Assembly (NCBI GenBank): GCA_016780775.1
Contig: JADHLI010000017.1
Span: 1-48,596, forward strand
From: Alphaproteobacteria bacterium
GTDB lineage: Bacteria; Pseudomonadota; Alphaproteobacteria; Puniceispirillales; Puniceispirillaceae
Direction: 5' to 3'
DNA length: 48,596 nucleotides
This document shows positions 16,037 through 48,596 of the stretch, one piece after another. Under the pieces are notes generated by a model. The model saw only the letters and a list, made by a program, of their open reading frames with translations. It did no database searches and had not been told where the DNA came from. The first letter of the stretch is position 1; each line of letters starts with the position of its first letter. Made by a program: the position numbers and the translations under genes.

Positions 16037-16819
16037 CTAGCCTTGTCTTTGTACCATCAGTTTTTTAATCTCGCCAATTGCCTTGCCCGGGTTCAGCCCC
16101 TTTGGACAGGTTTTTGCACAATTCATAATCGTATGACAACGATAGAGACGGAACGGGTCTTCAAGTGCGTCCAAACGCTCGCCTGTAAATTCATCGCGGC
16201 TATCAGCTATCCAGCGATAGGCTTGCAACAGCACAGCTGGACCTAAATAACGGTCTCCATTCCACCAGTAAGATGGACAAGAGGTCGTGCAGCTAAAGCA
16301 TAATACACATTCCCATAATCCATCTAGCTCGTCACGCTCAGCAGGTGATTGCTTACGCTCGCGCCCCTCTGGATCAGGGGTTTCAGTTTTCAGCCATGGC
16401 TCAACAGAAGTAAGCTGGGCATAGGCATGGGTTAGATCTGGCACCAAGTCTTTAACTACAGGCATATGCGGTAACGGGTAGATATTAACCTCGCCCTTAA
16501 CCTCATCAATAGCCTTCAAGCAAGCTAGCGTATTGCCGCCATCCACATTCATCGAACAGGACCCGCAAATCCCCTCACGGCAGGAACGCCGGAAAGTTAG
16601 GCCAGAATCCACCTCATTTTTGATCTTTATGAGCGCGTCCAGCACCATAGGACCGCAATCATCTAGGTCGACTTCATAGCTATCAATACGCGGGTTTTCA
16701 TCATCGTCTGGGGACCAGCGATAAATATTAAAGGTCTTCGTGCGACTGGCCGTATCTGGCGCCGCGTGATGATTACCTTTGGAAACCTTTGAATTTTCTG
16801 GCAAACTAAATTGTGCCAT
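16037..16819 (-). CDS. sdhB: Succinate dehydrogenase iron-sulfur subunit
   Basis: 260 aa, carrying electrons from FAD to quinone. The N-terminal [2Fe-2S] ligands lie in [17 protein letters not shown] with the distal LAC. The C-terminal clusters are in [17 protein letters not shown] ([4Fe-4S]) and [17 protein letters not shown] ([3Fe-4S]). The N-terminus carries about 20 extra residues before FNIYRW, as is common in this class. It is 42 nt downstream of sdhA, and GGGGAG precedes the ATG. Confidence 0.97.
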
Positions 16820-16861
16820 GTTTGATAACTCCCCTCGGCTCGATCCTCTGCCTGACGCTAA

Positions 16862-18652
16862 CTAGTATACGCGAGCTACCGGCGGTACCGGTTGAACCTC
16901 ATTGGTCAGCGTATTCATATTCACATCGCGGTAGCCTAGCTCTGAGCGGTTCTTTTCGTCCAGCCACATTACCGTATGCTTCATCCAATTTTCATCATCA
17001 CGATCTGGATAATCTTCATGCGCATGCGCGCCGCGCGATTCTGTCCGCTGATGTGCTGAGCGAACCGTTACCAGTGCTTGGCTCATCAGATTTTCAAGCT
17101 CCAACGCTTCGATAAGGTCAGTATTCCAAACCAGCGAGCGATCTTGAATGCCAAGGTCGCCCATGCTTCCAGCGATCTCATCCATGGATTTCACGCCTTC
17201 ATCTAAGCTAGATCCAGAACGGAAAACAGCGGCATATTTCTGCATCGCGCGCTGCATATCCAGCCGCAATGCACCCACTTTTTCCTTACCTTTCGCATGG
17301 CGCATTCTGTCCAAACGCTCAATTGCTTTATCTGTTGATTCTTGGCTTGGCGGGGCTAGGGTCGCACCAGGGGTTAACACCTCTGAGGCGCGCTGCGCGG
17401 CTGCCCGGCCAAATACGACAATATCCAGAAGCGAGTTTGTACCTAGACGGTTTGCGCCATGAACAGAAACGCAAGCTGCCTCACCAATGGCCATTAGCCC
17501 ATGCGCAACCCGATTCGGATCGTCCTTGGTCGGCGACAGCACTTCGCCATGATAATTAGTTGGAATGCCGCCCATATTATAATGCACAGTTGGCAAAACA
17601 GGTATAGGCTCGCGGGTGATATCCACGCCGCAGAAAATCCGCGCAGTCTCAGTAATGCCCGGCAAGCGTTCATGCAAGGTAGCCGCATCAATATGTTCTA
17701 GATGCAACAGGATATGATCCTTGTTTGGACCAACGCCGCGCCCTTCATTAATTTCCATCGTCATCGCCCGGCTAACCACATCACGACTCGCCAGATCCTT
17801 AGCCGTTGGTGCATAGCGTTCCATAAAACGCTCCCCTTCGGAATTGGTCAGGTAACCGCCTTCACCCCGCGCGCCCTCTGTTATCAGCACGCCAGCGCCA
17901 TAAACACCGGTTGGATGGAACTGCACAAACTCCATATCTTGCAACGGCAGACCCGCACGCAAGGCCATCGCATTGCCATCGCCCGTACAGGTGTGCGCAG
18001 AAGTACAAGAGAAATAAACCCGTCCATAACCGCCTGTTGCCAGCACAGTGCGCTGACCAAGGAAGCGGTGCAGAGAGCCATCTTCCATCGACAGCGCCAA
18101 AATACCTTGGCAAGCACCATTATCATCCATGATCAGGTCAATAGCGTAATATTCGACAAAAAATTCAGCCTTGTGGCGTAGGCATTGCTGATACAATGTA
18201 TGCAAAATCGCATGGCCAGTTCGGTCTGCTGCGGCGCAAGCGCGGCGCGCAATGTTTTTACCGTAATCAAGCGTATGGCCTCCAAAAGGACGCTGATAAA
18301 TATTACCTTCTTCTGTACGTGAGAACGGCACGCCATAATGTTCCAGCTCAATCACAGACGGAATAGCATTCCGGCACATATATTCAATAGCATCCTGATC
18401 ACCCAGCCAATCAGAGCCCTTGACGGTATCATACATATGGAATTTCCAGTTATCACCCTCACCCATATTATTGAGCGCTGCACCAATACCGCCCTGTGCA
18501 GCAACGGTATGTGAGCGGGTTGGAAAAACTTTGGTGATACAAGCAGTGCGCAACCCAGATGTGGACATGCCAAGCGTTGCTCGCAAGCCAGCCCCGCCAG
18601 CCCCAACAACAATCACATCGTAATGATGGTCTGTGATTTCATACGCGCTCAT
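16862..18652 (-). CDS. sdhA: Succinate dehydrogenase flavoprotein subunit
   Basis: 596 aa from the ATG at 18650-18652, which has GGAGAG upstream; a TTG two codons earlier is less likely. It binds FAD ([11 protein letters not shown]), with the covalent-FAD histidine in [10 protein letters not shown] and the active-site region [23 protein letters not shown]. It oxidises succinate to fumarate at the inner face of the membrane. The C-terminal helical domain ([21 protein letters not shown]) is complete. It follows sdhD after a 158-nt spacer. Confidence 0.97.
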
Positions 18653-18810
18653 CTTCAACTCTCCACATCAGCCATTTTAACTAGCTGTTTAAACTCTGCC
18701 AGCCAGCAAATGCTAACCGATTTCACAAATACTGGCCTATTTCTATCGATGCCGACCCTTAGATATTTATGCTAATTCCTGCCAGTTACCAGTGGCAGGC
18801 CAGCAGTTTT

Positions 18811-45552: not shown

Positions 45553-46689
45553 ATGAGTATTTCCTTTATTGACCTTGCTGCCCAACAAGCCCGACTACGC
45601 CCGCAAATTGATGCGGCCGTCCAAAAAGTTCTGGATAGGGGCGACTATATTATGGGACGCGAGGTGGGCGAGCTGGAAACAGCCTTATCGGAACGGTTGG
45701 ACGGCACACATGTGATTAGTTGCTCATCTGGAACAGATGCGCTTATTCTGGGTCTTTTAGGGCTTAAGGTGCGTCCGGGCGATGGTATTATCGTGCCAAG
45801 TTTTACCTTTGCTGCTAGTGCTGAATCTATCGCTGTATTGGGTGCATCGCCTGTCTTTGCCGAAGTTGAAGAGGCCAGTTTTAATCTGGATCCTGCCTTG
45901 CTAGGGGAGGCTCTTGAAGCTGGTAAGAAGGCCGGGCTAAACATGGTTGGCATTATGGCAATTGGCCTGTTTGGCCAGCCTGCAAATTTGCCAGCCATTT
46001 CAGAATTTGCTGCTCAAAATAACTTATGGCTGCTTGATGATGCGGCGCAAAGCTTTGGGGCAAGTTGGAAAGATAAACCTGTTGGCCAGTTTGGGGATGT
46101 AACCGCAACCAGCTTTTTTCCGGCCAAGCCTTTGGGATGTTATGGTGATGGCGGCGCTGTGTTTACCAAAAATGAAGAGATAGCAGAAATCGCACGTTCC
46201 TGCCGCATTCATGGGCAAGGCACAGACAAATACGAAAATGTAAATATCGGGATGACGGCCAGACTAGATACTATGCAGGCTGCTATATTGCTTGCAAAGC
46301 TGGAAATTTTTGATGATGAGCTAGCCAAGCGCCAGCAGGTTGCTGAACGCTATCACAAATTGCTAGATGATGTGGCACAGGCACCGCAATTAGCACAAGC
46401 CGCGACCTCTAGTTGGGCACAATATGTTATCCGCTTGCCTCATGATACAGACAGGCAAGCAGTACAAGCCTCAATGCGTGAGCATGGCGTGCCAACCGCA
46501 ATTTATTATCCGCGTCCCATGCACACACAGCCCGTTTATAAGCGCTATCCTGTTAGCCTCTCAGGCCTATCTCTAACCGAGCAATTGGCGCGTGATGTTC
46601 TGGCATTGCCAATGCATCCCTATTTGGAAAAACAGACACAAATACAGGTTGTCGCAGCCCTTCAAAACGCGCTTGAAGCCCAAAAATAG
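45553..46689 (+). CDS. DegT/DnrJ/EryC1/StrS aminotransferase (WbpE/GnnB-like)
   Basis: A 378-aa PLP sugar aminotransferase. FIDLAAQQARLRPQID, GDYIMGREVGELE, CSSGTDALILGLLGL, VPSFTFAASAESI and LDDAAQSFGA are present. The PLP lysine lies in SFFPAKPLGCYGDGGAVF (Lys192), and the HGQGTDKYEN and GMTARLDTMQAAILLAKL boxes follow. The pattern is close to WbpE/WlbC and GnnB, which aminate a 3-keto UDP-sugar with glutamate. It lies 27 nt after the oxidoreductase. Likely product: a UDP-3-amino sugar for lipid A or surface polysaccharide. Confidence 0.86.
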   Translation: MSISFIDLAAQQARLRPQIDAAVQKVLDRGDYIMGREVGELETALSERLDGTHVISCSSGTDALILGLLGLKVRPGDGIIVPSFTFAASAESIAVLGASPVFAEVEEASFNLDPALLGEALEAGKKAGLNMVGIMAIGLFGQPANLPAISEFAAQNNLWLLDDAAQSFGASWKDKPVGQFGDVTATSFFPAKPLGCYGDGGAVFTKNEEIAEIARSCRIHGQGTDKYENVNIGMTARLDTMQAAILLAKLEIFDDELAKRQQVAERYHKLLDDVAQAPQLAQAATSSWAQYVIRLPHDTDRQAVQASMREHGVPTAIYYPRPMHTQPVYKRYPVSLSGLSLTEQLARDVLALPMHPYLEKQTQIQVVAALQNALEAQK

Positions 46690-46779
46690 TCCCGATAGAT
46701 AACTGTCTCTGTAAAAAAAATCAGCAAAGCCAGCCCTTGAAATAGGGTTTCTGGCAAGTGGTTAACGCGGCCTAAACTG

Positions 46780-47742
46780 ATGTTCGCCATTGATGCTAAG
46801 GGCTTGGCTATGTTGCAGATGTCTAACCATCCTAGAAAACCGATTACCGCAGCTATGTATTTTTTGATGCGCGCGCTGCCCGTTAAGCCATTTATAGCGC
46901 GGCAGCTAGAGATACCCTCCAGAAAAAACAACGCGCTACAGCCGGATAAATTCAGCACCGATATTAAAATAGCCACACGCCGCACAGCCGATAGCCATGT
47001 AATAACTCTTTGGGCAAGCGCACCCAAAGTCCGCTCGGATGCGCATATTGTTTATCTGCATGGCGGGGGACATGCACTGCAAGCCATGCCCTTTCATCGA
47101 CGATTTGCTGAACATTTAGCCCGCCAGACAGGTAGCTATGTTAGATTGCTGGATTTCCCACTGCCGCCAGAAGCACAATGTACCGACATTTTGGAGGCGG
47201 TCCGGGCCATCTATAGACAGCTATCAGGTGACTATCGACAACATAGATTTATTTTGATGGGCGATTCGGCAGGCGGCGGCCTTGCCCTGTCCTTGCTACA
47301 AGAATTGAAAGGGTCATTTGCAGGTGAAACTAAAAACCCAGACGGCACAGTTCTATATTCGCCCTGGCTAGATGTTGGCCTGCTAGCGCTAGAAAAAGAC
47401 AGCTATCACACCCAAAAAGAAGCTATATTACCCCTTGCCGCACTTCGTAAGTCAGGTGCCCGCTATGCCGGTGATATAAATATGGGGGATGCCCGCTGCT
47501 CGCCCCTTTATGGCACCGTAGACGGGCTTGGCAAGTTGCAGATTTTTATAAGCCAGGATTAGTTATTTTATCCAGATTCTGTGCAGTTTTATAACAAAGC
47601 AGCGCAAGCTAGAGGTACAGAAATTGAGCTGATAGCAGAGCCGCACCGCCTGCATTGCTGGCCTGTTTGTCTTCCTTTTTATGAACAGGAAAACAATTTT
47701 CAGCAAATGGCCAATTTTTGCAAATTGCCCCTCTCAAGATAG
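46780..47742 (+). pseudogene. Alpha/beta hydrolase (HSL/esterase type) interrupted by an in-frame amber codon
   Basis: The first 260 codons give an alpha/beta hydrolase with the oxyanion motif YLHGGGHAL (94-97) and nucleophile GDSAGGG (Ser163). A TAG at 47560-47562 stops it at ...FISQD. Reading on in the same frame gives 59 further sense codons (LFYPDSVQFYNKAAQARG, then EPHRLHCWP) to a TAG at 47740-47742, just the C-terminal part the family needs, with the likely catalytic His292. The stop sits after Asp260, the probable acid of the triad, where homologues often have Glu or Pro. Either a single nonsense mutation (GAG to TAG fits), readthrough, or a sequencing error. Substrate unknown. Confidence 0.82.
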
Positions 47743-47791
47743 CTAGCCAATAGGAAACAATAGGTGATGCTGCGTTTTTCGCACTTTTTTC

Positions 47792-47820
47792 TTGAAAGCG
47801 TTTTTACTCATCTATATAAC
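47792..47820 (+). promoter_or_regulatory. Sigma70-type promoter of tRNA-Gly
   Basis: TTGAAA (47792-47797), a 17-nt spacer and TATAAC (47815-47820). The predicted start, about 7 nt downstream, is roughly 5 nt before the mature tRNA 5' end. This is the clearest promoter match in the window. Confidence 0.75.
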
Positions 47821-47831
47821 GATGCAACGAT

Positions 47832-47906
47832 GCGGGTGTAGCTCAGGGGTAGAGCACAACCTTGCCAAGGTTGGGGTCGAGAGTTCGAATCTCTTCACCC
47901 GCTCCA
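47832..47906 (+). tRNA. tRNA-Gly (GCC)
   Basis: A 75-nt cloverleaf: acceptor arms GCGGGTG and CACCCGC, D-arm AGCTCAGGGGTAGAGC, anticodon stem-loop CCTTGCCAAGG with anticodon GCC, T-arm with GTTCGAATC, and an encoded CCA. It decodes GGC/GGU. The 3' part is a classic integration site for tyrosine recombinases, and such a gene follows 68 nt downstream. Confidence 0.97.
47881..47906. other. Putative attachment site in the tRNA-Gly 3' end
   Basis: The T-arm plus acceptor end of the tRNA is the expected crossover segment, given the adjacent integrase and intact tRNA. The second copy (attR) would lie beyond the right edge, so the exact core cannot be defined here. Confidence 0.45.
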
Positions 47907-47971
47907 ATTTCCAGATAAATTGGTACGCATCTCATTGAAATGTAAGCATATGCTATGTTTGCAGGAGATAT

Positions 47972-47993
47972 GTGATGTACAGAGTGATGTACA
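47972..47993. repeat. 12-bp direct duplication at the integrase start
   Basis: GTGATGTACA occurs at 47972-47981 and 47984-47993 (period 12), creating two in-frame ATG starts (MYRVMYK). Confidence 0.7.
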
Positions 47994-48596
47994 AATCAGA
48001 TGGCCAGTACGTGTCATGCAGGGCTGGTATCTATTACTACACAAGACGTGTTCCCATAGATGTGAGGCAGTATTATGCCTCCCCTCGCCTATCCTTTAGC
48101 TTGAGAACCAAATCATATGCTGGGGCTGTTCGTGCAGCACAGTCTGTGACACAGCGTCTTGAGGATTACTGGTTGGGATTACGACTGCAAGATATGGATA
48201 TTCCAGCCATCCATCTCGTGAGGGCAGATGGTGTAGCACATGATGCGCCAGTTATGCTTGATGCTGTTGAGAACTATCTCAAGCTGAAGGGTAATGATGA
48301 CCGCATCTTTGTTCGAACAGCTAGACGGAATGGTAGTTATGTAGCCAAGCTGTTAGGCAACAGACCCATTACATCATATTCTACAGCAGAGGCTGCTCAG
48401 TTCCGTGACTGGTGCTTTGATAAGGGTATGGGGCTAAACACAGTCAAACGTGTCTTTGCCTCTGTAAGGTCAGTTATAAATCTCAATATCCGTGAGTATG
48501 GATTAGAGGGCAGTAACGCCTTCTCTGGTACTTATATGCCTGACAGAGATGATACATCGCCATCTCGCAAACCTTTCCCTAATGACATCCTGCAAC
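47975..48596 (+). CDS. int: Phage-type tyrosine recombinase/integrase (N-terminal part)
   Basis: An open frame of at least 207 codons running off the right edge. AGGAG (47963-47967) lies 7 nt before the ATG; an ATG five bases upstream meets a stop at once. The N-terminus reads GIYYYTRRVPIDVRQYY and then SLRTKSYAGAVRAAQ, the arm-type domain (DUF6538-like) of alphaproteobacterial phage/island integrases. A SAM-like core-binding region follows (ENYLKLKG to NTVKRVFASVRSVIN). The catalytic Arg, His and Tyr lie outside the window. Ten of 22 Arg codons are AGA/AGG by my count. Location beside tRNA-Gly supports site-specific integration there. Confidence 0.85.
   Translation, partial: MYRVMYKSDGQYVSCRAGIYYYTRRVPIDVRQYYASPRLSFSLRTKSYAGAVRAAQSVTQRLEDYWLGLRLQDMDIPAIHLVRADGVAHDAPVMLDAVENYLKLKGNDDRIFVRTARRNGSYVAKLLGNRPITSYSTAEAAQFRDWCFDKGMGLNTVKRVFASVRSVINLNIREYGLEGSNAFSGTYMPDRDDTSPSRKPFPNDILQ

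Follow-up and report, generated by a model that had tools for sequence, protein, structure and literature searches.

Bacterial HSL (family IV) esterases such as PMGL3 (PDB 7b1x), EstE5 (3h1a), E40 (4xvc) and Est8 (6y9k) all belong to PF07859 (Abhydrolase_3) and have a glutamate at the catalytic-acid position. In the part of PMC7824956 drawn on here, the catalytic acid of PMGL3 is E243, within a GADE motif, and EstE5 is mentioned as another enzyme with a Glu in this role. The gene studied here resembles these esterases in encoding HGGG, GDSAGG and, beyond the TAG, a conserved Asp and a catalytic-type His, all in the same order. Unlike them, it carries a TAG in place of the catalytic-acid codon and reads DFPLPPE where DYRLAPE is usual. 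Its best sequence match is the esterase of PDB 3d7r (90.3 bits), which we take to be of Staphylococcus origin; the similarity is moderate. The two proteins share an ALQ..PFH stretch after HGG and a PD pair behind the TAG column; in that column 3d7r has a Glu, and it contains no stop.

The window, by which we mean the whole stretch of 48,596 nucleotides that was analysed, holds the gene close to one end. The features of the locus are as follows.

45553 to 46689, + strand: DegT/DnrJ/EryC1-family aminotransferase gene, upstream, also the neighbour in the same-genus genome G001 (domain match, genome comparison)
46690 to 46818, no strand: gap of 129 nt; the corresponding stretch of G001 is 802 nt long and holds a divergent TetR gene (locus comparison)
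46819 to 47559, + strand: 5' part of the esterase gene, with the HGGG oxyanion and GDSAGGG nucleophile motifs (probable start set from the same-genus copy)
47560 to 47562, + strand: in-frame TAG replacing the codon of the catalytic acid, Glu or Asp (sequence, alignment column tally)
47563 to 47742, + strand: 3' part of the esterase gene, 59 codons and a TAG, with the conserved Asp266 and a catalytic-type His292 (frame, alignment, tail profile)
47832 to 47906, + strand: tRNA-Gly (gcc) (tRNA search)

We consider it probable that this is a recently inactivated, one-codon nonsense pseudogene of an accessory HSL-type (family IV) esterase. We propose that a point change made the TAG at the catalytic-acid codon and that RF1 would end translation there, leaving a truncated product that lacks the catalytic acid, the catalytic His and the end of the fold. 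Such a product should be inactive because all three are missing. The gene shows one mark of a nonsense pseudogene, a premature stop with homologous sequence beyond it. We infer that the stop, whose position is known from one genome of the species, exists in living cells, that the esterase yields no active product and that the inactivation event was recent.

The initial annotation had described a hydrolase ORF split by one amber codon, and the sequence bears this out. The ORF at 46780-47562 (+ strand, 260 aa) is closed by the TAG at codon 261, and 59 further sense codons follow in this frame up to a second TAG at 47740-47742; LFYPDS and HRLHCWP are encoded in this tail. The homologous start is probably the ATG at 46819 and not 46780, as judged from the 13 additional codons of the longer form, which have no counterpart in the same-genus copy. 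A promoter scan of 46600-48000 returned no sigma-70-like site (shuffled sequences led us to expect 2.3), which says little. By eye, an inverted repeat (GCCAG, CCCT / AGGG, CTGGC) lies at 46729-46755 between the aminotransferase and the hydrolase; no T-run follows it and the terminator scan has no entry for it.

The length of the tail is no evidence for a split gene and was dropped as an argument, because 59 codons without a stop arise with a chance of about 5% at this base composition and four of the other 44 ORFs picked extend further in frame (by 77, 90, 274 and 387 codons). This comparison covers the 45 window ORFs, the esterase ORF included, of at least 100 aa that were picked with limited overlap. 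The 274-codon extension, which follows 16862-18658, was rejected as a readthrough candidate: it is an in-frame neighbour gene (a FAD_binding_2/Succ_DH_flav_C protein, then an Fe-S protein). The region 16037-18658 (- strand) thus holds two succinate-dehydrogenase-like genes in one frame, 14 codons apart after TAG TTA, which mimic readthrough although both are normal.

Homology of the tail is what identifies it as the missing C-terminus, as had been claimed. The head alone scores 85.8 bits against PF07859 (profile positions 1-172), and the protein with the TAG read as X scores 99.4 bits (positions 1-208); both exceed the curated cut-off of 25 bits. The family search of its own genome gave a match at 47047-47661 that spans profile positions 1-208, scores 100.7 bits and contains one TAG. 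The tail alone gave no Pfam match at E 0.001, but its score on a profile built from 28 homologues was 15.8 bits, whereas 200 shuffled tails (104 reported) reached at most 0.9. The alignment stays in frame as far as the tail reaches, in agreement with the earlier view that no frameshift is needed.

The stop falls on the catalytic acid itself. The initial annotation had placed it directly after the likely triad Asp, which is off by one codon. Of 28 class-level homologues, 25 have Glu and three have Asp in the TAG column, whereas residue 260, the Asp before the TAG, is not conserved (Asp in 7/28). Over all 56 related loci the column holds 34 Glu, 21 Asp and one gap, and it is Glu in the three structures with printed alignments (3d7r, 4xvc and 6y9k); for E40 and Est8 this assignment comes from the alignment alone. 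Thus, the conservation of the column, the structures and E243 of PMGL3 all point to the same residue, and the TAG column corresponds to the catalytic acid in the GxxE of bacterial HSL esterases. The 56-locus alignment was made with the window protein from 60 loci offered, four of which (L018, L027, L031 and L064) fell below the cut. By eye, L064 shows ENEVL at the place of the TAG column; L006 is the locus without a residue there. The 28-member set was drawn from the 29 loci L068-L096 and omits L095, which has Glu in the column. Codons at this position in 55 homologues are GAA (18), GAG (16), GAC (12) and GAT (9). As GAG occurs in 16 of them, a single substitution from GAG would be enough for the TAG, and the suggested GAG to TAG change is a sufficient explanation.

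The other active-site features remain intact: HGGG (residues 94-97), GDSAGGG (residues 161-167), Asp266, His292 and Trp294, of which the catalytic-type His292 is encoded past the stop. Some usually conserved head positions are altered, for instance in DFPLPPE, and this suggests a divergent branch of the family. As written, the gene lacks the catalytic acid and so is not predicted to encode an active HSL (family IV) esterase, but by its sequence it is derived from one.

How long ago the gene would have been lost can be bounded. Under neutral substitution with a transition weight of 2, the absence of a second stop in 918 nt limits the drift since the loss to less than about 0.09 substitutions per site (at the 5% level). 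The ratio of tail to head score is 0.10, below that of all 28 homologues (0.16-0.28). This is a hint of some decay, but it could reflect the divergent branch instead. Conserved columns are kept about equally in the head (32/51) and the tail (8/12). In the part of PMC13345370 that we draw on, ‘near-complete’ young pseudogenes are those that keep more than 65% of the gene and are broken into more than one ORF. The window gene is like this class in both respects; however, the pseudogenes treated there are from insect endosymbionts.

Comparison with other genomes of the genus suggests that the gene is accessory. The only same-genus copy is in G001, on contig JAURQT010000175.1 of an Alphaproteobacteria MAG (loci L103 and L109 are this same contig), where the order is aminotransferase, divergent TetR gene and a hydrolase gene running off the contig. 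That copy breaks off with its contig near residue 102 of the query, before the stop position is reached. Over 89 codons, the two hydrolase genes are identical at 0.64/0.76/0.39 of codon positions 1/2/3 and at 44 of 89 residues; the aminotransferase values are 0.83/0.91/0.49 and 301 of 378 residues. These codon-position identities were taken without a formal dN/dS. They suggest that the hydrolase evolved faster than its neighbour, yet with the pattern of a coding gene, and the 89 comparable codons show signs of coding selection. In G003, G005 and G007, the tRNA-Gly (gcc) lies directly 3' of the aminotransferase gene without room for a hydrolase. Two of these three genomes are just 64% and 76% complete, with the locus itself present in them. 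The hydrolase seems dispensable because it is missing from the corresponding place in all three. G004 has a run of N downstream of the aminotransferase gene and no tRNA in the piece taken, and a search at E 1e-100 found the aminotransferase in neither G002 nor G006. The hydrolase thus looks like an accessory gene of the G000/G001 branch. The tRNA-Gly (gcc) may be an integration site; tyrosine integrases often sit just after a tRNA gene.

Searches for closer relatives returned little. Genome contigs and viral contigs yielded no close relative of the whole protein, and a two-sequence-alignment search found the same-genus fragment alone in the genome contigs and nothing in the viral contigs. Twenty-six plasmid records matched, every one below 60% identity. 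Additionally, PF07859 matches three further places in the gene's own genome, so the enzyme class would not be lost with this gene.

A lost TetR partner was considered as a strong argument for decay and dropped, as the TetR protein was found in one of the eight genomes of the genus, so that a genome without it need not have lost it. This made the pseudogene slightly less probable and a sequence error slightly more so. The one genome is G001, which served as the working control; either loss here or gain in G001 may have occurred. Remnants of the gene were not detected: the best protein match in the window has E 1.5 and lies elsewhere (206-295), DNA comparison placed none in 46690-46818 among the matches listed, and the G001 TetR protein had no match in G000 in a search run without a control. 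In the flanks taken of 28 core and nine other homologues, no TetR neighbour was found at E 0.01 beyond L073, L103 and L109. The clear matches are L103 and L109, the same-genus record, and that of L073 is weak (18.9 bits).

The initial annotation had left three options, a very recent pseudogene, a readthrough gene or an assembly error. The first is now the best supported. The alternative that survives best, a base-call, assembly or strain-consensus error that masks an intact and ordinary gene in most cells, we hold to be unlikely but real. An error would account for an open frame and undamaged remaining motifs, for a stop that one substitution explains, and would be in keeping with a draft of 44 contigs from which several standard tRNAs were not recovered. 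However, modern short-read assemblies rarely carry consensus substitution errors, and the low tail score would fit, weakly, a gene that is out of use.

Functional readthrough, in which UAG is decoded by a suppressor tRNA or otherwise to give some full-length enzyme, is very improbable, although the tail is in frame and still homologous. The analysis found no support for amber decoding in RF1, tRNAs, pylS or TAG usage. RF1 is intact in the genome (515.9 bits). The pylS model had a single partial match, whose 25 bits fall below the cut-off of 178.15; among control genomes, 13 of 14 matched and one was above the cut-off. TAG is often used as a stop in the window, terminating 16 of the 45 picked ORFs, the esterase ORF included (15 of the 44 others). 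A check for an amber suppressor tRNA had been proposed: none of the 29 tRNAs above the cut-off has a CUA anticodon, in a list from which some tRNAs (Tyr, Trp and Ile, for example) are missing. At a relaxed threshold of E 10, three more matches appeared, a weak full-length one and two fragments, all below the cut-off; around the full-length match ARAGORN reported just the known tRNA-Lys. As several standard tRNAs are absent from the list, a suppressor tRNA in an assembly gap keeps a small chance; that the enzyme's activity would depend on low-level UAG decoding by such a tRNA, and so on recoding within its own active site, is most improbable.

The position of the stop itself also speaks against useful readthrough. 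The residues usually inserted at UAG are Gln, Lys, Tyr, Trp and Ser, and these are not expected to restore activity at a site that holds only Glu or Asp. Readthrough is thus unlikely because an acidic active-site residue would be needed there. Internal stops are present in 1/40, 2/6 and 1/37 of the matches listed in three homologue searches; among the matches listed, no homologue apart from the window gene has a TAG inside. In one distant homologue from another genus of the order (L065, in G081), a TAA interrupts the frame a little upstream of the catalytic His; its Glu is intact and the tail beyond the TAA is still recognisable. A literature search returned no paper on UAG readthrough in a bacterial esterase pseudogene.

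Finally, that the truncated protein of 247-260 aa has its own non-catalytic function is exceedingly improbable, since 28 of 28 class-level homologues continue through both the Glu/Asp and His columns, even though the head is long and has the first two active-site motifs.

For the nonsense pseudogene that we favour, the consequence lies mainly in annotation: gene callers would report a hydrolase of 260 aa, probably an inactive one. The locus is a probable and ordinary example of accessory-gene decay beside a tRNA-Gly locus. As a separate observation, the first part of a DUF6538 protein (57.9 bits) occupies 47972-48595 (+ strand) just after this tRNA, where the contig breaks off; compared by eye, it is similar to the N-terminal part of a 399-aa ORF behind the same tRNA in G005 (L106:2580-3779).
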